Positions 2,545 through 9,778 of a DNA stretch of 9,793 nt are shown piece by piece. How positions within the stretch are numbered: position 1 is the stretch's first letter; each line of letters opens with the position of its first letter. The notes beneath the pieces are model-generated. The model ran no database searches, was not told the origin of the DNA, and saw only the letters and a program-made list of their open reading frames with translations. This DNA comes from Gemmatimonadota bacterium. GTDB taxonomy: Bacteria > Gemmatimonadota > Gemmatimonadetes > Gemmatimonadales > Gemmatimonadaceae. A program made the position numbers and the translations under genes. Location: positions 1 to 9,793 of the forward strand of contig JARIET010000083.1 of NCBI GenBank assembly GCA_031127185.1. The letters run 5' to 3'.

Positions 2545-3621
2545 CTATTGGTGATCGCGGGGTGCCGGCTGCTGCTGTGTGAGGCAGTGCAGCGTACCAA
2601 GGCCCCACACGAGGTCCACGGCGTGGATACCGACGACCTGCCGGCGGGGGAAGACGCGCGAGAGCGTGGCGAGCGCCTCCCGGTCTGCGGGGTCGTTGAA
2701 CGTCGGCACGAGGACGACACCGTTGGCGACGTAGAAGTTCGCGTAGCTGGCCGGGAGGCGTTGTCCACGCATGGTGACCGCACGCGGGTAGGGTAGCGGA
2801 ACAACGGTGAGCGGGCGCCCCCTGGCATCCCGGGCCCGCCGGAGGCGCTTGAGATTGTCGAGCGAACGTCGATGGTTTGCATCGCGCGGGTCGCGCTCGT
2901 GTGCCAGCAGCACCACGCCGGGGGCCGCAAAGCGCGCAACATCGTCCACGTGGCCGTGCGTGTCGTCGCCCACGCATCCCTCACCGAGCCAAACAGTGTG
3001 ACGGATTCCGAGTTCGGTGGCAAAGAGGCGCTCGTAGTCGGCGCGACGCATGCCGGGATTCCGGACCTGCACACGGGAAAGCAGCCACTCTTCGGTGGCG
3101 AGGAGAGTTCCGCGTCCGTCCGTCTCAATGCCTCCACCTTCGAGCACCGCGTGGTCGCCAGTGTCTGGGCGGAGTGCGATGCGCGTGGGCGTCTTCGTCG
3201 CCCGGGCGACGCACTCCGGCACCTTCGTATCGCGCGCGAAGTCGGGGTACTTCGCCCAGGCGTTGAATCCCCAGTGGACCCACTCGAGCTTGCCGGCGCG
3301 CGTGAGCACGCCCGTGGGCGCCGAGTCGCGGAGCCAGGCCCTGTCGGTGGGGCAGAGGTGGAGGCGCACGTTCCTGGTCACGCCGTGTGCAGTCAGTGCG
3401 CTTCTGGCTGCGCTGCGCAGGGCTGCTGAGTGACAGAGAATCTCGACGCGCTCGTGGGCGCTTAGGGCGCGCACGATTTCGGCATATACCCAGGGGATTG
3501 TCGCGAGTTTGTCGGGCCAGTCGGCCGCGTTGTGGGGCCAGCTGATCCAGGTGGCCGAATGGGGTTCCCACTCAGCGGGCCAGCGGACGCCAGAGGCGGC
3601 ACCTGCGGGCTTACGGCTCAC
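2545..3621 (-). CDS. aguA: Agmatine deiminase (Porphyromonas-type arginine deiminase family)
   Basis: The likely reaction is agmatine + H2O to N-carbamoylputrescine + NH3, in the cytosol. The 358-residue protein has the usual family length and the pentein-fold signature. The segment [16 protein letters not shown] is at 15-30, WLRDSAP with Asp99 at 96-102, EGGG at 161-164, GTLLATEE at 171-178, and GHVDDVARF with catalytic His224 and Asp226 at 223-231. The nucleophile is Cys346 in HCLTQQ near the C-terminus. The GTG at 3619-3621 is the only ATG/GTG start before the conserved N-terminus. It has no visible Shine-Dalgarno sequence and lies inside a heptamer repeat. The residue usually Cys in ATEECLL is Trp179, which is not catalytic. 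The next gene upstream is aguB, which acts on the product, and this supports agmatine over peptidyl-arginine as substrate. A family member of other specificity cannot be excluded. Confidence 0.92.
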
Positions 3622-3645
3622 GGGAGTCGGTTGACGGTTGACGGC
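3611..3645. repeat. Five tandem heptamers overlapping the aguA start
   Basis: Five in-phase 7-base units are present on the plus strand: TTACGGC, TCACGGG, AGTCGGT, TGACGGT and TGACGGC. They occupy most of the 48-bp gap between aguB and aguA and run into the first codons of aguA. The GTG start codon (3619-3621) therefore lies inside a repeat unit. The period matches the array at 2473-2542, though the unit differs. The two arrays flank aguA. Confidence 0.75.
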
Positions 3646-3669
3646 GGCATGCAGGCGGTGATGGGCGAC

Positions 3670-4581
3670 TCAGTTTCCGATCCAGCGATTCAGGATCGGG
3701 CCATACGCGTCAATGCGCCGGTCGCGCAGAAACGGCCAGTTCCGGCGCGCGCCTTCCACCAGGTCGAGGTTGCAGGTGGCGATGAGTGTTTCGGTGCCGG
3801 AGCCGGCATCAGCGATCAGTCGGCCGTATGGATCGGCGATGAACGACGCGCCGAAAAACTCGAGCCCATCCGTGCCGGGTTCGGGTTCAAATCCCACCCG
3901 GTTTACGGCTGCCACGAACACCCCATTCGCAATGGCGTGCGCGCGCTGGGCCGTGCGCCACCCATCCACCTGCGCGGCGCCCCACTCACTCTTTTCCGCC
4001 GGATGCCAGCCGATCGCCGTGGGATAGAAAATGATGTCTGCGCCCAGCAGTGCCGTGATGCGTGCTGCTTCGGGATACCACTGATCCCAACAGATGAGCA
4101 CGCCAATCGTGCCGAACCGCGTCTTCCAGACCTTGAACCCGTTCGCGGTGCCTTCGCCTTCAGTCACCGCGTCGCCGGGCGCGAAATAATACTTCTCTTC
4201 GTAGAGCGGGTCGTGGGGAATGTGCATCTTCCGGTAGACACCGAGCGCGCTGCCGTCCGCGTCGATGACCACAGCGGAATTTCGGTAGACGCCGGGCCCC
4301 TGCCGCTCGTAAATCGGTACCACGAGCACGATTTCCAGTTCCGCTGCCAGCGCGCAGAGCGTTTCCGTTGTCGGTCCAGGGATCGATTCCGCGAAATTGA
4401 AGTATTCCTGCTTCAGCGCCTTGCAGAAGTACGGCGCGTTGAAGAGTTCCTTCAGGCAGACCACCTGTGCCCCGCGCGACGCCGCGTCGCGCACGCGGTC
4501 AATCGTGGCCATGAGCGTGGCGGCCTGATCGGCGGCGACGCCGTCCTGAATCAGCGCCACGGAGATGGAAGGCCGGGTCAT
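3670..4581 (-). CDS. aguB: N-carbamoylputrescine amidase (nitrilase superfamily)
   Basis: The enzyme hydrolyses N-carbamoylputrescine to putrescine, CO2 and NH3, completing the agmatine route started by AguA. Numbered from the ATG at 4581 (303 residues), the nitrilase triad is Glu45 in LKELF, Lys118 in YRKMHIP and Cys164 in ICWDQWYPEAAR. The ICWDQW(Y/F)PEAAR block and the segment PLYEEKYYFAPGD are typical of the AguB branch. Length is normal for the family, with no signal peptide. A GTG at 4602 would add seven residues. That codon lies in the arm of a strong hairpin (4600-4633), so the ATG is preferred. Neither start has a clear Shine-Dalgarno sequence. The gene is followed after 48 bp by aguA, in the same direction. 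Identification is firm from the motifs and the partner gene; the exact start is less certain. Confidence 0.94.
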   Translation of the reverse strand: MTRPSISVALIQDGVAADQAATLMATIDRVRDAASRGAQVVCLKELFNAPYFCKALKQEYFNFAESIPGPTTETLCALAAELEIVLVVPIYERQGPGVYRNSAVVIDADGSALGVYRKMHIPHDPLYEEKYYFAPGDAVTEGEGTANGFKVWKTRFGTIGVLICWDQWYPEAARITALLGADIIFYPTAIGWHPAEKSEWGAAQVDGWRTAQRAHAIANGVFVAAVNRVGFEPEPGTDGLEFFGASFIADPYGRLIADAGSGTETLIATCNLDLVEGARRNWPFLRDRRIDAYGPILNRWIGN

Positions 4582-4599
4582 TCGGGGGAAGTTAAGCGT

Positions 4600-4633
4600 C
4601 ACGGGCGGCCGACGCCTACGCCGACCGCCCGTG
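4600..4633 (-). terminator. GC-rich hairpin after the peroxiredoxin gene (candidate terminator or attenuator)
   Basis: A perfect 9-bp inverted repeat, CACGGGCGG (4600-4608) and CCGCCCGTG (4625-4633), encloses a 16-nt loop that can pair further but imperfectly. It lies 24 bp beyond the peroxiredoxin stop codon on the minus strand and just before aguB. There is no run of T after it, so a classic intrinsic terminator is not shown. It could reduce read-through into aguB or protect the upstream mRNA. It overlaps the alternative GTG start of aguB. Confidence 0.55.
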
Positions 4634-4657
4634 GGCGTACTGGTGGGGGACCGAGGT

Positions 4658-5242
4658 CTACTTCGCTGCGGCTGCCCTGCTGACGGCGGCCGCCAGCTCG
4701 TCGTACGAGTCCTGCACGAGTTCGCGGAAAGGCCGCATCACGTGGGCAATCTTGCCGTCCTTGCCCACCACAAAGAGCACACGCTGGTAAAACGGCAGGT
4801 TGTTGCCACGGGGTTGGCCGAGCGAGTTGTAGAGCGGGCCCAGGGTACGACCTGAGTCACTGACGAACGTGACCGGATAGCCCGCCTCCTTCGCCCATGT
4901 TCCCGTGAAGGTGTCGACATCAATGGAGATGGCAAGCACAGAGACCCCATTGCCACCGTTGAACAGCTGCGCGTACTGATCACGGTACGCGTTCATTTGA
5001 GCCGTTCAGCCACCGGTGCGCGCTTTCGGAAAGAAAGCGAGCACCACTACCTGACCCTTGAGGTCGGAGAGGCGTACGGGTTTGGCGAGCTTTCCATCCT
5101 TGTTGCTCGCGGGGAGGGAAAAGTCCGGCGCAACATCGCCGACTCGTGGTGCGAGGTCTTGCGCAGGGGCGGCGGCCTGGGCCCCAACTGATGGGGCCAG
5201 GGCGAACACCGACGCGAGCGCCAACGTCTTCAAATGACTCAT
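4658..5242 (-). CDS. Exported selenocysteine-containing peroxiredoxin (AhpC/TSA family) read through an in-frame UGA
   Basis: This is a predicted thiol-dependent peroxidase acting outside the cytoplasm. The 194-residue reading has a signal peptide at 1-23 (Lys5, hydrophobic core, AQA before Ala24), then a thioredoxin-fold peroxiredoxin domain: GDVAPDFSLPA at 35-45 and VVVLAFFPKARTGG at 65-78. The codon for residue 79 is TGA (5006-5008), followed by TAQMNAYRDQY and a frame open to the TAG at 4658-4660. Pro72, Thr76 and residue 79 form the peroxiredoxin PxxxTxxC motif, so UGA takes the place of the peroxidatic cysteine. Arg154 in QRVLFVVGKDG fits the conserved active-site arginine. No cysteine occurs anywhere, so there is no resolving residue and an external reductant is implied. 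The start is set by AGGAGG 9 nt upstream of the ATG at 5240-5242. A SECIS-like hairpin follows the UGA. The alternative is a pseudogene or sequencing error. The selenoprotein reading is inference but strongly supported. Confidence 0.85.
4970..4991 (-). promoter_or_regulatory. Candidate bacterial SECIS element downstream of the recoded UGA
   Basis: On the mRNA (minus strand), 14 nt after the UGA, comes CGCGUAC (4991-4985), then an 8-nt loop CGUGAUCA (4984-4977), then GUACGCG (4976-4970). This gives a perfect 7-bp stem. Bacterial SECIS elements sit within the coding sequence just after UGA. They usually have a short apical loop with a G in its first two positions; here G is the second loop base and is followed by U. 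Further out, UGAA (4995-4992) can pair with UUCA beyond a bulge. SelB would bind here to deliver selenocysteyl-tRNA. The fold is read by eye, not computed. Confidence 0.72.
5006..5008 (-). other. In-frame UGA predicted to encode selenocysteine
   Basis: The plus-strand TCA here is TGA on the coding strand, in frame with both halves of the peroxiredoxin. It lies between TGG and TAQM, at the peroxidatic Cys position of the family. Cys codons TGC/TGT differ from TGA by one base, so a simple mutation is the competing explanation. Confidence 0.82.
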
Positions 5243-5251
5243 GCGAGGCAT

Positions 5252-5257
5252 CCTCCT
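5252..5257 (-). promoter_or_regulatory. Consensus Shine-Dalgarno site that sets the peroxiredoxin start
   Basis: The coding strand reads AGGAGG, then 9 nt, then the ATG at 5240-5242. A second ATG at 5249-5251 abuts the site with no spacer and is unlikely to be used. This is the best ribosome site in the leftward arm, where the other genes lack a clear one. It implies good translation of the peroxiredoxin, and it rules out the longer frame that is open to 5410. Confidence 0.8.
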
Positions 5258-5332
5258 CAGGAAGCCGGGATACCCCAACTTTGCATCCGCACGGTCGAAG
5301 CGCAACTTTCGGTCAGGCGAACCTACCTCAGC
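5258..5332. promoter_or_regulatory. Divergent intergenic region, presumed promoters for both arms
   Basis: This gap lies between the outward-facing peroxiredoxin (minus) and small unknown gene (plus), so promoters for both arms should be here. I found no convincing pair of -35 and -10 boxes on either strand. A weak TATCCC-like box on the minus strand near 5268-5273 is the best candidate. It shows no operator-like palindrome and no repeats. The assignment rests on gene orientation only. Confidence 0.35.
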
Positions 5333-5344
5333 GGGAGCCAGGGC

Positions 5345-5785
5345 ATGGACGGGACGGAGCTCGATGAAGTGTTGGCCAAGCTCGCGAAGGATGTCGAGAC
5401 CGCTGTGCACGCGCTGTATCGCGGTGATGTGCGGCAGGGCACGATGCGCGGGCGGAGCGGGGCAGCGCTACGCGAAGCCCAGGCGGCGATGAAGGCCGCC
5501 GTAGCGCGTGCGGGAGTCTCGTTGGGCACACCGGCCGCCGGGAGCGCCGCCGTGCCGCCACGCCCGTCCGCAACGGCGCCGGTGGTGGCGGGCGCTTCGG
5601 TCGGTTGGTCGAAGGAAGAAGGCGAGGCGGTGACGAAGTGCATTACCGCGTGGCTGCCCATGGGGAACCCCCGCGACGCCGCACCGGACAGCAAGTGCAT
5701 TGCCGCAGCGAGCATGCTGGCACCGACCTGGGCCCAGCGGGAGCGCGCGCGCGAAGCGGTGAAGCGTCTCTCGTCGCCAGCCTGA
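5345..5785 (+). CDS. Small protein of unknown function, first gene of the kinase cluster
   Basis: I do not recognise a family. The 146-residue protein has an N-terminal helical segment with alternating charges (about 1-57, starting MDGTELDEVLAKLAKDVETA) and an Ala/Pro-rich linker (about 58-86). A C-terminal helical part (about 87-146) has two cysteines, Cys99 in TKCITAW and Cys118 in SKCIAA. There is no signal peptide or membrane segment, so it is probably cytosolic. The ATG at 5345 was chosen for GGGAG at 5333-5337 with a 7-nt spacer. The frame is open from 5234, but that longer reading overlaps the peroxiredoxin start and has no ribosome site. The gene ends 16 bp before the first kinase gene, in the same direction, so co-transcription is likely. 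It may be a kinase partner or substrate, which is inference from position only. Codon use matches its neighbours. Confidence 0.75.
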   Translation: MDGTELDEVLAKLAKDVETAVHALYRGDVRQGTMRGRSGAALREAQAAMKAAVARAGVSLGTPAAGSAAVPPRPSATAPVVAGASVGWSKEEGEAVTKCITAWLPMGNPRDAAPDSKCIAAASMLAPTWAQRERAREAVKRLSSPA

Positions 5786-5801: not shown

Positions 5802-7829
5802 TTGACTTCCGACCCGCGCGCGTCCCGCGACGACCAGACCACTCCGGTCGGGGCACGCACGAGCTGCCCCCAGTGCGGCGTGCAGCTGGACTCCATGACC
5901 ACCACCTGCGGCGCATGTGGTGCGGTAATCACTGGTGGCGCCATGGATGCCGAGCGGATGGAGCGCGTGCGCATCCGGCTGCAGCAGGGGATTGGCGACG
6001 GCTACCAGCTCGGCGACATGCTCGGGCGCGGTGGGATGGGAATCGTCTTCCAGGCGCGGGAGCTCTCGCTCGACCGCGATGTGGCATTGAAAGTCCTCGC
6101 GTTTGACCCGCTGCTCAATCCCGACGCCTACGCCCGTTTTGAGCGCGAGGCCAAGCTGGCCGCGCGGCTCGACCACCCGAACATCGTGCCCATCTTTGCC
6201 GTGGGGCAGGGAAACGGGATCGCCTTCTATACCATGCGCATGGTGCGGGGCGGGAGCGTCGAGGCGCTGGTTTCGGGCGGGCAGGCGCTGACCATGTCGC
6301 GCGCGATCGCCATCCTCGACGATGTCGCAAAAGCGCTCGACTACGCGCACGCGCACGGTGTGGTGCATCGCGACATCAAACCCGCAAACGTATTGCTCAG
6401 TGACTCCGGGCATGCGATGGTGGCGGATTTCGGGATTGCGCGCGCATTCGGTGGGACTGCGGGCGGCACGTCGACCGCCACCGGGACAGGTGTCGTCGGG
6501 TCGCCAGCGTACATGAGCCCGGAGCAGTGGCGAGGCGAGAAGGTGGATGGTCGCGCCGATCAGTACGCGCTGGGCGTGTTGGCGTTTGAGCTGCTCACGG
6601 GGTCGCGCCCGTTCAAGGGCGACTCGATGCAGGAGCTGCTCCGCATGCACCTGCAGGACGACGCGCCCGACATCATTTCCGTGCGGCACGACTTGCCGTC
6701 GCGCCTCACCGACCCGATTCGCCGCGCGCTCTCAAAGGATCCGAATGACCGATACGCGAGCGCCGCCGAGTTCGTGGCAGCGCTGAATGGTGCGACCGTC
6801 GCCCCGGCACGACTGGCGTCGGCGTCGACGGTTGCCGCATCGGCGCCCACGGTTCGCACACCAATGCCTCCACCGCCCGTGCGGGCGCGCGCGCCGGGGT
6901 CGGCGACTGCATCCCAAACCATAGCAGCGCCGGCTGGCGCTGGCGGGTCGCGACGTGTCACGACAGCCCCGGGTGTTCGCGAGACGGATGACGCGCCGGC
7001 GAAGCGTTCCCTCGTGCCATGGCTCGTGCTGCTGGTCATCGCCGGCGCTGGCGCCGGCGTGATCTGGAAGCTCGCCCCGCCCCGCGTTGAAGCGCCGCCG
7101 GCGGTGCAGGCGCCGCCAGCGAGCGCGCCGGCCGACACGGTGACCGATATGGAGCGTCGCCTGCAGAGCCAGATAGAGGAGACGCGCCGCATTGCCCTCG
7201 CGGCCGAACGCCGCGCAGACTCTCTTGCCGAGCTGAACAGGTCTCTCGGAGCCGGCACTGCTGCGGCCGGCAACCCGCGTCCGGCGCCCGCGGCCGAGCC
7301 GCCCCACGCGCACCTCTACGTGTTCGCGCAGGGCGGCGCCGCGCAGGTGGTGCTCGATGGCCAGGTACGGGGCGACAATGCACCGGCCGTCTACCAGGTG
7401 GCACCCGGGCGCCATCGCGTCTCTGTGCGCGGGGCGCAGGAGTTCGTTCCTGCCGAAACAACCGTGGTGCTGGCGGTCAATGACACACAGTCGGTGATCT
7501 TTCGGACGCGCCGCGTGGCGGCCGCTGACGGCGTTCGCGGCGGTATGACGCCGACGAACGTGCCAGGTGTGTCAGCGTTGCCGCCGAGCGCCATCATCAC
7601 GGAGAACGCGCCCCCAGATGCTGCTGCGCTCATCGTCAAGAACCCTTCAACCGGCCAAGCGACGGTGAACTGGCCCGCCGTGATACGCAGGCTCGGATTT
7701 GACCCGCGCAGTGTTGACCAGCGCAGCCTCAGTCCCACGCAGCGCGCCGGGTTGCGCAGATTTCAGCAGATGATGGACTCCCTGCGCCGGGCCGGCACCC
7801 AGATACCCGGACGGAAGCCACAACGATGA
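5802..7829 (+). CDS. Transmembrane Ser/Thr protein kinase with N-terminal zinc ribbon and PEGA-like tail
   Basis: This is a eukaryotic-type (PknB-like) kinase of 675 residues. A zinc ribbon comes first (Cys22, Cys25, Cys36, Cys39). The kinase domain spans about 68-328: glycine loop GRGGMG 75-80, Lys97 in ALKVL, Glu116 as the probable helix-C partner, HRDIKPANVL 189-198 with Asp191, DFG 209-211, and SPEQ 239-242. A Thr-rich activation loop lies at 220-230. A Pro/Ala/Thr-rich juxtamembrane linker (about 330-402) leads to one TM helix at about 405-422. Outside the membrane come a probable coiled coil (447-482), a PEGA-like beta domain (about 503-570, with VVLDGQVRGD and VAPGRHRVSVRG) and a helical C-terminus (about 640-665). 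There are no PASTA repeats. The start is TTG at 5802; no ATG or GTG lies between it and the zinc ribbon. The catalytic residues are intact, so it should be active. Substrate and signal are unknown. Confidence 0.93.
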   Translation: MTSDPRASRDDQTTPVGARTSCPQCGVQLDSMTTTCGACGAVITGGAMDAERMERVRIRLQQGIGDGYQLGDMLGRGGMGIVFQARELSLDRDVALKVLAFDPLLNPDAYARFEREAKLAARLDHPNIVPIFAVGQGNGIAFYTMRMVRGGSVEALVSGGQALTMSRAIAILDDVAKALDYAHAHGVVHRDIKPANVLLSDSGHAMVADFGIARAFGGTAGGTSTATGTGVVGSPAYMSPEQWRGEKVDGRADQYALGVLAFELLTGSRPFKGDSMQELLRMHLQDDAPDIISVRHDLPSRLTDPIRRALSKDPNDRYASAAEFVAALNGATVAPARLASASTVAASAPTVRTPMPPPPVRARAPGSATASQTIAAPAGAGGSRRVTTAPGVRETDDAPAKRSLVPWLVLLVIAGAGAGVIWKLAPPRVEAPPAVQAPPASAPADTVTDMERRLQSQIEETRRIALAAERRADSLAELNRSLGAGTAAAGNPRPAPAAEPPHAHLYVFAQGGAAQVVLDGQVRGDNAPAVYQVAPGRHRVSVRGAQEFVPAETTVVLAVNDTQSVIFRTRRVAAADGVRGGMTPTNVPGVSALPPSAIITENAPPDAAALIVKNPSTGQATVNWPAVIRRLGFDPRSVDQRSLSPTQRAGLRRFQQMMDSLRRAGTQIPGRKPQR

Positions 7830-9778
7830 CTGGCGATTCGACCGTACACTTTGCGCGCCGGTGCCGGCATTGTGGCTCGGAGCTTCCCGGGACCTCCTCG
7901 TTCTGCTCCAAGTGCGGGGCCACCGCGGAGCCAATGGCTCCAACCGGCGATCCGCTGCGCGATAAGCTGCGCGAGTTGTTTGGCGGGGAGATCGACATCG
8001 AGCGGGAGCTCGGTCGCGGTGGCATGGCCGTGGTGTACGCCGGTTTCGACACGCAGCTGCAGCGCCGCGTGGCGGTGAAAGTCCTGCTCCCGGAAATCGC
8101 CAACGACCGCTCCATGGCCGACCGCTTCCTGCGGGAGGCGCGCACGGTCGCAGCGCTGCAACATCCGCATGTTGTCACCGTGTACTCCGTCCGATCTCGT
8201 GACGGCGTCGATGCGATCGTGATGCAGTTCGTTGAAGGCCGCAGCCTGGACGCCGTGTTGCGCGACGGGCGCGCGTTGCCAGTGCCGGTCGCGGGGATGC
8301 TGTTGGCGCAGGCCGCCGCGGGCCTGCAGCATGCTCACGACCGGGGTGTGATCCATCGCGACGTGAAGCCGGCCAACGTGCTGATCGACGCGGACGGTCG
8401 CGCGATCGTGTCTGATTTCGGCATCGCCCGGCGTGATCACGGCCCTCGCACCACGGAGACGGGGCTCGTGGTTGGGACCTGGGCCTACATGAGTCCGGAG
8501 CAGCGGACGGCCGATGCGCTGACTCCGGCGACGGACCAGTACGCACTCGGTGTCATGGCGTTTGAGTTGTTGACCGGCCAGCTGCCCTACACCGGATCGC
8601 CCGGAGAAATGCTCCGGGCGCACATGCACGATCCGCCCCCGTCGGTGCGTACGCTGAGGCCGGAGGTCTCGCCGGCTGTCGATGCCCTGGTGCAGCGGAT
8701 GATGGCAAAGCTGCCCGGAGATCGGCTGTCATCGTTGCGCGACGCCGAGCGCGTCTTTCAGTCGCTCGTAGCGAGTGAAGGGAAAACGACCATGCAGCTC
8801 GCGGCATTTTCGCGAGGCAGGTTGAGCGAAGGGTCAACGGTGGTCGCCGCGATTCCCCGCGCTGGCATAGATGATCCTCGGTCGGCACCGACCGCCCGGG
8901 CCAGCGCGCCGACGATGCCGGTGGCCCCAGGCACCCTTCGTGCGGCACCGCCTGGCGTGCCCGGCGTCTCCGCGCCGGAACCCGCATCGCGTAAATGGTC
9001 TGCCATCGGTGGTGCGGTGGCCGGGCTGGCCGTGCTGGTGGTTGCCTATGTGCTCGTGCAGGGCCGGACGCCGGATGGGGTTTCGTCGTCACGTGCGCCC
9101 ACGACCCCGCCGCAGTCCGAATTGCCGGCGGCCCAGCCAGTGGTTGGCGGCCAAGCCTCGACCGTGGCGGGGGCGCCCAGTTCCCAGGCGCCCGCGCCAC
9201 GTGCGGCTGCGCCACCGCAGCAGCCCGGCAGTTCGCCGACGGATGTGCGCATCGGTGGCGCCGGCAGCGTGATTGGGACCGTTCCGCTCGCGTCGCCGAG
9301 TGGCGCAGAACGTTCACCGGCTGCGACGGCACGCGCGGCTGACTCATCGGCTCGGACGCAGCCACCCGAAGCGGCGCCGGATCGGCCGGTGGTGGCGCCG
9401 ACCCGCACGGAGCCCGCGGTGCCATCCGCGCCGGCGATGCCCGCCGCCGCGCTGGCCGATGCCCGCCGGATTGGCCGGGAATTCGTGACACTGCTCAACC
9501 AGCGCCGGCACCGCGAGGTCGCACAGATCCCCATGGCGGGCGGTGATGCCGCGGCACGGGCTGAGCTGATTCGCCTCACCGAGTCCGCCGCGGATTTTGG
9601 TGCCGGCTTTGACCGCGTGTGTTCCGCGCCGGACCGCTGGTCACTCGGGTTCGAGACGGAGTGCATTCTCGATTTGACGTGGCGCGGTGGGCAAAAGCTG
9701 ATACGGGTTCGGCTTTTCGCGACTCCGGTGGAGTCGGGATGGAAGCTCGCAGGCGTGGCGGTGGATCCCGGCGGGTGA
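7826..9778 (+). CDS. Transmembrane Ser/Thr protein kinase with N-terminal zinc ribbon and distinct extracytoplasmic domain
   Basis: This second PknB-like kinase has 650 residues. The zinc ribbon uses Cys13, Cys16, Cys27 and Cys30. The kinase domain spans about 56-315: glycine loop GRGGMA 63-68, Lys85 in AVKVL, Glu104, HRDVKPANVL 177-186 with Asp179, DFG 197-199, SPEQ 223-226, and Thr residues in the activation loop at 209-212. A Pro/Ala linker (about 340-388) precedes one TM helix at about 393-411. A long Ala/Pro/Ser-rich stalk (about 415-540) then carries a C-terminal alpha+beta domain (about 541-650). That domain has Cys599 and Cys613, which could form a disulfide outside the cytoplasm. Its helix-then-strands order suggests an NTF2/SnoaL-like fold, but this is a guess. 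The ATG overlaps the previous kinase's stop (ATGA), so translation is probably coupled. All catalytic residues are present. It is a relative of its neighbour in the cytosolic half only. Confidence 0.93.
   Translation: MTGDSTVHFARRCRHCGSELPGTSSFCSKCGATAEPMAPTGDPLRDKLRELFGGEIDIERELGRGGMAVVYAGFDTQLQRRVAVKVLLPEIANDRSMADRFLREARTVAALQHPHVVTVYSVRSRDGVDAIVMQFVEGRSLDAVLRDGRALPVPVAGMLLAQAAAGLQHAHDRGVIHRDVKPANVLIDADGRAIVSDFGIARRDHGPRTTETGLVVGTWAYMSPEQRTADALTPATDQYALGVMAFELLTGQLPYTGSPGEMLRAHMHDPPPSVRTLRPEVSPAVDALVQRMMAKLPGDRLSSLRDAERVFQSLVASEGKTTMQLAAFSRGRLSEGSTVVAAIPRAGIDDPRSAPTARASAPTMPVAPGTLRAAPPGVPGVSAPEPASRKWSAIGGAVAGLAVLVVAYVLVQGRTPDGVSSSRAPTTPPQSELPAAQPVVGGQASTVAGAPSSQAPAPRAAAPPQQPGSSPTDVRIGGAGSVIGTVPLASPSGAERSPAATARAADSSARTQPPEAAPDRPVVAPTRTEPAVPSAPAMPAAALADARRIGREFVTLLNQRRHREVAQIPMAGGDAAARAELIRLTESAADFGAGFDRVCSAPDRWSLGFETECILDLTWRGGQKLIRVRLFATPVESGWKLAGVAVDPGG

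Follow-up and report, generated by a model that had tools for sequence, protein, structure and literature searches.

The family into which the gene described here falls is already known. Selenocysteine (Sec) peroxiredoxins with a TxxU motif are treated as an established selenoprotein family in the excerpted text of three papers (PMC13188914, PMC9312934, PMC1088965), and the first of these, in the same excerpts, names the Eubacterium acidaminophilum enzyme as the experimentally verified reference. As for the phylum Gemmatimonadota, the main texts of PMC13188914, PMC5029168, PMC9312934 and PMC2398784 contain no word beginning with Gemmatimon; the portions consulted of other papers list Gemmatimonadetes among the phyla with SELO homologues (PMC3281104) or name Gemmatimonadota in other matters (PMC8318568, PMC4807772). 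A Sec peroxiredoxin from this phylum is thus not mentioned in the parts of the literature covered by our search, and genes of this kind may appear in supplementary genome-wide tables. The locus analysed here very probably encodes one: judged from its sequence and that of its relatives, we have little doubt that it specifies an AhpC/TSA peroxiredoxin whose single UGA, at the catalytic position, is decoded as Sec with the aid of a predicted hairpin.

A peroxiredoxin gene with an in-frame TGA at the catalytic position

The window (the whole stretch of DNA that was analysed, 9,793 nucleotides) contains on its minus strand an open stretch followed, in the same frame and after a single TGA, by a 112-aa open reading frame (Table 1). 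The preliminary description had reported these two stretches as one interrupted gene, and re-reading the sequence gave the same result. With TGA read as U, the frame begins at an ATG, ends at a TAG and gives 194 residues, hydrophobic at the N-terminus, that include Pro72, Thr76 and U79 (PKARTGGU) and not a single cysteine. This protein scores 87.7 bits against the AhpC/TSA family PF00578, for which the cut-off is 26; P72, T76 and U79 occupy the PxxxTxxC/U motif, and Arg154, which we take to be the catalytic arginine of peroxiredoxins, is invariant in a 38-row alignment. The original identification of the joined product as a peroxiredoxin with the TGA at the catalytic position of PxxxTxxC is therefore upheld.

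Table 1 Features of the peroxiredoxin locus and its downstream neighbour, in window coordinates
Feature	Position	Strand	Basis
Sec-peroxiredoxin CDS, complete, 194 aa with U79, stop TAG included	4658..5242	-	Open reading frames, PF00578 match
In-frame TGA at the peroxidatic position, likely selenocysteine	5006..5008	-	Reading, homologue alignments
Predicted signal peptide, approximately residues 1-23, AQA site, boundary approximate	5174..5242	-	Sequence, alignment, crude hydropathy
Shine-Dalgarno-like GAGGAGG, 9 nt ahead of the ATG	5252..5258	-	Sequence
Downstream 112-aa ORF, called separately by the ORF caller	4658..4996	-	ORF list, identical entry P0003
Predicted SECIS hairpin CGCGUAC-CGUGAUCA-GUACGCG	4970..4991	-	Folding, pairing in relatives, bSECIS constraints
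N-carbamoylputrescine amidase-like (AguB), next gene downstream, outside the mechanism	3670..4602	-	TIGR03381 294 bits, below the cut-off of 410

The AlphaFold2 model (pLDDT 91.1), in which residue 79 was modelled as cysteine, places this residue near the start of a helix spanning residues 77-88, and the eight PDB structures that match it best are all peroxiredoxins, of the BCP/PrxQ-like and AhpC/TSA kinds (TM 0.82-0.86, normalised by target length). By this model, the protein adopts a peroxiredoxin fold, the peroxidatic residue lying close to where a helix begins.

The TGA and the reading frame are conserved among relatives

When 148 genomes of the family were searched at the protein level (E <= 1e-10), 144 gave matches. 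From the matches listed we took 70 loci, 30 in a first batch and 40 picked as TGA carriers, which yielded 78 distinct copies. The codon at the catalytic site is TGA in 64 of them, TGC in 12 and TGT in 2, a ratio that is no estimate of frequency because the second batch was chosen for TGA. Adding 20 loci chosen for Cys copies and 119 loci found with a DNA pattern gave a larger set of 195 distinct copies, with 160 TGA, 33 TGC and 2 TGT; 96 of these 160 TGA copies are uninformative on the conservation of the TGA and the hairpin, since the pattern that found them contains the TGA and the hairpin core. The alignment column thus holds either Sec/TGA or Cys, as had been anticipated, in all 78 copies (64 and 14) and all 195 (160 and 35). 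Stops scattered elsewhere in the gene among close relatives had been named as a result that would count against a selenoprotein; a second in-frame TGA is absent from every one of the 78 protein-search copies and of the 195 in the larger set.

Divergence was compared among six copies from five genomes of the genus (15 pairs). The rate of third-position differences is 0.46 ahead of the TGA, drops to 0.06 over the 15 codons that follow it and is 0.49 farther downstream; of all differences, third positions account for 0.55 on the upstream side and 0.54 on the downstream side. The near equality of these shares indicates that the frame is coding before as well as after the TGA, and the value of 0.06 that the codons overlapping the hairpin are constrained at silent sites.

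Export was assessed across the Sec copies with a crude hydropathy measure, which could be applied to 125 of the 160 (31 had no anchor motif and 4 were cut by contig ends). Of these 125, 123 have a hydrophobic stretch preceding the domain and 107 have an AxA motif, making it likely that the protein is exported.

A predicted SECIS hairpin accompanies the TGA but not the cysteine codon

Downstream of the TGA, nucleotides 18-39 counted from its U form a predicted hairpin, the stem beginning 14 nt and the loop 21 nt past the UGA. Of the 59 TGA copies that are distinct (defined as different 60-nt stretches among the 64), 58 keep all seven pairs, against 0 of 14 Cys copies. The pairs vary in composition at the base of the stem: among the 59, the outermost is G-C in 51, C-G in 6, A-T in 1 and an unpaired A-A in 1, and the next is G-C in 58 and A-T in 1. 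In the larger set, at least six of the seven pairs are formed by 160/160 TGA copies and 5/35 Cys copies, and all seven by 113/160 and 1/35, respectively; as 47 of the 160 TGA copies lack the outermost pair, the firm core of the hairpin is 6 bp.

The bacterial SECIS (bSECIS) model, as stated in the excerpted text of PMC13188914, calls for a loop of 3-9 nt, a stem of 4-16 bp, a G among the first two nucleotides of the loop, a spacing of 16-37 nt and a minimum free energy (MFE) of -7.5 or lower. The window hairpin fits this model, with a loop of 8 nt, a stem of 7 bp, a G at loop position 2, a spacing of 21 nt and an MFE of -9.4 kcal/mol. Folding of single sequences was rejected as proof of a SECIS, since shuffled sequences and synonymous recodings reach the same stability in roughly 5-10% of cases: for the window, 11 of 200 shuffles fold equally well (z -1.94) and 535 of 5000 synonymous-codon resamplings attain the observed energy, and none of the 64 TGA copies reaches p <= 0.01 under such resampling (median 0.077; 0.44 for Cys copies). 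Folding energy alone not being decisive, the SECIS claim is carried by the conservation of the pairs and the difference between Sec and Cys copies.

Selenocysteine machinery and its co-occurrence with the TGA

The source genome, an assembly of 219 contigs estimated at 61% completeness, contains selD (386 bits) and, just behind it on the same contig (C95), a tRNA-Sec gene (selC; 78 bits), which ARAGORN also reports as tRNA-SeC(tca). Of the four sel genes proposed as a check on the selenoprotein reading, selC and selD are therefore present; selA and selB were not found in this 61% complete assembly. Seven weak matches to selB were considered and set aside: five of the open reading frames look, on reading the proteins, like EF-Tu, IF-2, TypA, LepA and EF-G, the two weakest matches have E-values of 1.1e-5 and 7.9e-4, and we claim no selB. 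Each of the 13 relatives from the genus that were searched has selA, selB and tRNA-Sec.

Across the family, a TGA copy occurs in 96 of 148 genomes, with protein search and DNA pattern agreeing on which ones (the pattern tally of 107 includes 11 more genomes whose two-mismatch matches are Cys copies). Among the 100 of 148 genomes with at least 90% completeness and at most 5% contamination, two or more of selA, selB and tRNA-Sec are present in 66/66 with a TGA copy versus 7/34 without (Fisher 2.8e-18, a value that overstates the independent evidence because the genomes are kin). When all 148 are counted, at least one of these components is found in 95 of the 96 TGA genomes and in 12 of the 52 others; none was detected in one TGA genome of 78% completeness (G136).

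Seven family genomes of good quality (G016, G025, G031, G037, G043, G063 and G129) have Sec machinery and no TGA peroxiredoxin. The idea that the peroxiredoxin is the sole selenoprotein of these bacteria was rejected, given matches to the alpha subunit of formate dehydrogenase (FDH) with one internal TGA in relatives. Such matches were seen in 10 of the 13 genus relatives (for example, G019, G120 and G137), so the Sec trait probably serves a Sec-FDH as well. In some other genomes that have the Sec peroxiredoxin, G023 and G128 among them, the listed FDH match has no TGA.

Distribution and database annotation

The exact TGA-plus-hairpin pattern was found in 191 of 298 genomes sampled from Gemmatimonadota, and in 0 of the 6 among them from outside the class to which the window belongs, which places a probable exported selenoperoxidase, as far as sequence can tell, in most of the sampled genomes of one class of the phylum. 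A reversed-pattern control gave none among the matches listed. In named genomes the pattern marks at least 119 loci; 113 of those listed are titled Gemmatimonadota, and two (L112 and L175) have titles without a phylum. Four have titles from other groups, namely Acidobacteria (L118), Gammaproteobacteria (L155 and L182) and the Terrabacteria group (L167). Horizontal spread beyond the phylum was considered for these four and is not favoured: L118 is 89.8% identical in protein to L184, L167 is 82.4% identical to L180, and L155 equals L182 and is 97.8% identical to L146. Because the oddly titled loci are nearest to loci titled Gemmatimonadetes or to each other, mislabelled bins seem likelier than transfer. 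It is through such relatives that the window itself is assigned to Gemmatimonadota.

Ordinary annotation had been expected to split the gene in two, and half of this expectation is borne out. The 112-aa C-terminal piece of the window stands alone as a protein-collection entry (P0003, 100% identity over 58% of the query), and entries of 111-112 aa make up 8 of the 120 listed, three of which a source names as peroxiredoxin; no N-terminal piece was seen among the entries listed.

Alternative readings of the TGA

Three other explanations were weighed, and we regard all of them as very improbable. Under the first, the UGA would terminate one product and a second protein would start at an ATG 9 nt past the stop (window position 4996), so that the locus would encode two halves. 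Residue +4 is indeed a methionine in 147 of the 160 TGA copies, and the separate 111-112-aa entries fit such a start, but 12 TGA copies have His and one has Val at this residue and hence no ATG, the Cys copies form one continuous protein, the split would cut through the active-site helix of the AlphaFold2 model and the TGA copies track the Sec machinery. These observations leave a two-protein reading only a very slight chance of being right.

Equally slim are the prospects of readthrough by a near-cognate Trp or Cys tRNA, or of a reassigned code, in place of Sec insertion. Either would conserve the reading frame just as well. However, four of six other frames checked in the window end in TGA, so this triplet is not generally a sense codon there; TGG occupies the site in 0 of 195 copies; and the association of the hairpin with the TGA copies, the tRNA-Sec and selD genes and the genomic co-occurrence all fit Sec. 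Least tenable is a broken gene or sequencing error, that is, a Cys peroxiredoxin rendered non-functional by a recent change of TGC or TGT to TGA: one TGA is all that separates the window's copy from a normal gene, but this explanation is in our view refuted by the joint conservation of the TGA (64 of 78 distinct protein-search copies, and with the hairpin in 191 of 298 genomes of the phylum) and of the downstream frame, which is under coding selection past the TGA.

The reading of the gene as a selenoperoxidase with Sec at the TGA, put forward in the preliminary description, thus gains support from the TGA/Cys column, the hairpin contrast, selC with selD and the co-occurrence across genomes. 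The mechanism would run as follows. A ribosome would arrive at UGA 79, where Sec would be inserted by SelB carrying Sec-tRNA(Sec) and docked on the hairpin. The signal peptide would direct export of the protein, whose selenolate, located at the N-terminal end of helix 77-88, would act as the reductant of H2O2 or organic peroxides. The oxidised selenium would then be reset in a 1-Sec cycle by a thiol donor from outside, which would be required because the protein has no cysteine.

Cysteine copies and the active-site proline

The Sec and Cys copies differ at a further site of the active centre. Residue -7, the active-site proline, is Pro in 35/35 Cys copies and in 43/160 Sec copies, the window copy among them; the remaining 117 Sec copies have F (74), Y (36), I (3), S (2) or V (2). 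No cysteine occurs in the aligned part of 149 of the 160 Sec copies. On a 99-row tree the Sec/Cys state requires five changes, and on a 195-row tree there are six changes of this state and four of the proline state. A statistical link between Sec and proline loss was considered and is unproven: the evolutionary events are few, and an independent-pairs test, which finds one or two pairs on well-supported branches, cannot reach significance. Our literature search found no paper on the peroxiredoxin active-site proline. Some genomes carry both a Sec and a Cys copy, and many Sec copies lack the proline otherwise kept in peroxiredoxins; together they form a natural set for asking what benefit selenium brings to a peroxiredoxin.

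Four genomes of group g32 (G032, G056, G077 and G091) and three of group g23 (G070, G087 and G110) have solely Cys copies among those read, and none of selA, selB or tRNA-Sec was detected at the search thresholds in these seven. Tandem peroxiredoxins were seen in relatives from the genus and family (L026, L029, L038, L040, L042-L044, L046, L052, L067 and L070), mostly as one Cys and one Sec copy, with two Sec copies in G132 (L026).

A broader scenario can be envisioned, which we offer tentatively and consider rather less probable than not. The Sec form across Gemmatimonadota might constitute a subfamily of its own, an exported, cysteine-free 1-Sec peroxiredoxin with a near-invariant SECIS, in which selenium relaxed the requirement for the proline; it might be a main reason for keeping the Sec machinery, and lineages that lost this machinery might have switched to Cys and Pro as they did so.

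Genomic neighbourhood

Downstream of the Sec peroxiredoxin, the window contains AguB-like and then AguA-like genes (putrescine from agmatine), the three together covering positions 2545-5242. For 25 of the 94 TGA copies with enough flanking DNA, an AguB match lies on the same strand no more than 2.5 kb downstream; 27 more had too little. On the other side, a divergent small open reading frame (5234-5785) has matches in relatives, and positions 5802-9778 are taken up by a pair of Ser/Thr kinase genes that overlap, the second of which starts with a zinc ribbon.

Comparison with known peroxiredoxins

One set of counterparts lies in the same bacteria. The Cys paralogues belong to the same family and, in several genus relatives, are tandem neighbours of the Sec copy; they differ in having a Cys codon, in almost never having the full hairpin (0/14, or 1/35 in the larger set) and in always having the active-site proline (35/35).

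PrxQ/BCP thiol peroxidases have a resolving cysteine a few residues past the peroxidatic one, which is missing in some members. They resemble the window protein in that their model (NF006960) is the best-scoring one in NCBIfam and their structures (PDB 3hjp and 4g2e) are among the nearest folds. The score of 62.2 bits nevertheless falls short of the equivalog cut-off of 140, and the window protein, as read here, would have Sec in place of Cys, no cysteine able to resolve it and a probable route of export.

Like the Sec peroxiredoxins proper (PF00578/COG1225, TxxU), typified by PrxU of E. acidaminophilum, the window protein belongs to the AhpC/TSA family and, as read here, has Sec as the peroxidatic residue of PxxxTxxU. 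It is unlike PrxU in scoring 45.3 bits against NCBIfam NF040737, the equivalog cut-off of which is 270, and in combining a predicted signal peptide with the lack of any other cysteine. By its sequence, the window gene probably represents an unnamed subfamily of the known Sec peroxiredoxins, one that is probably exported and mostly cysteine-free.
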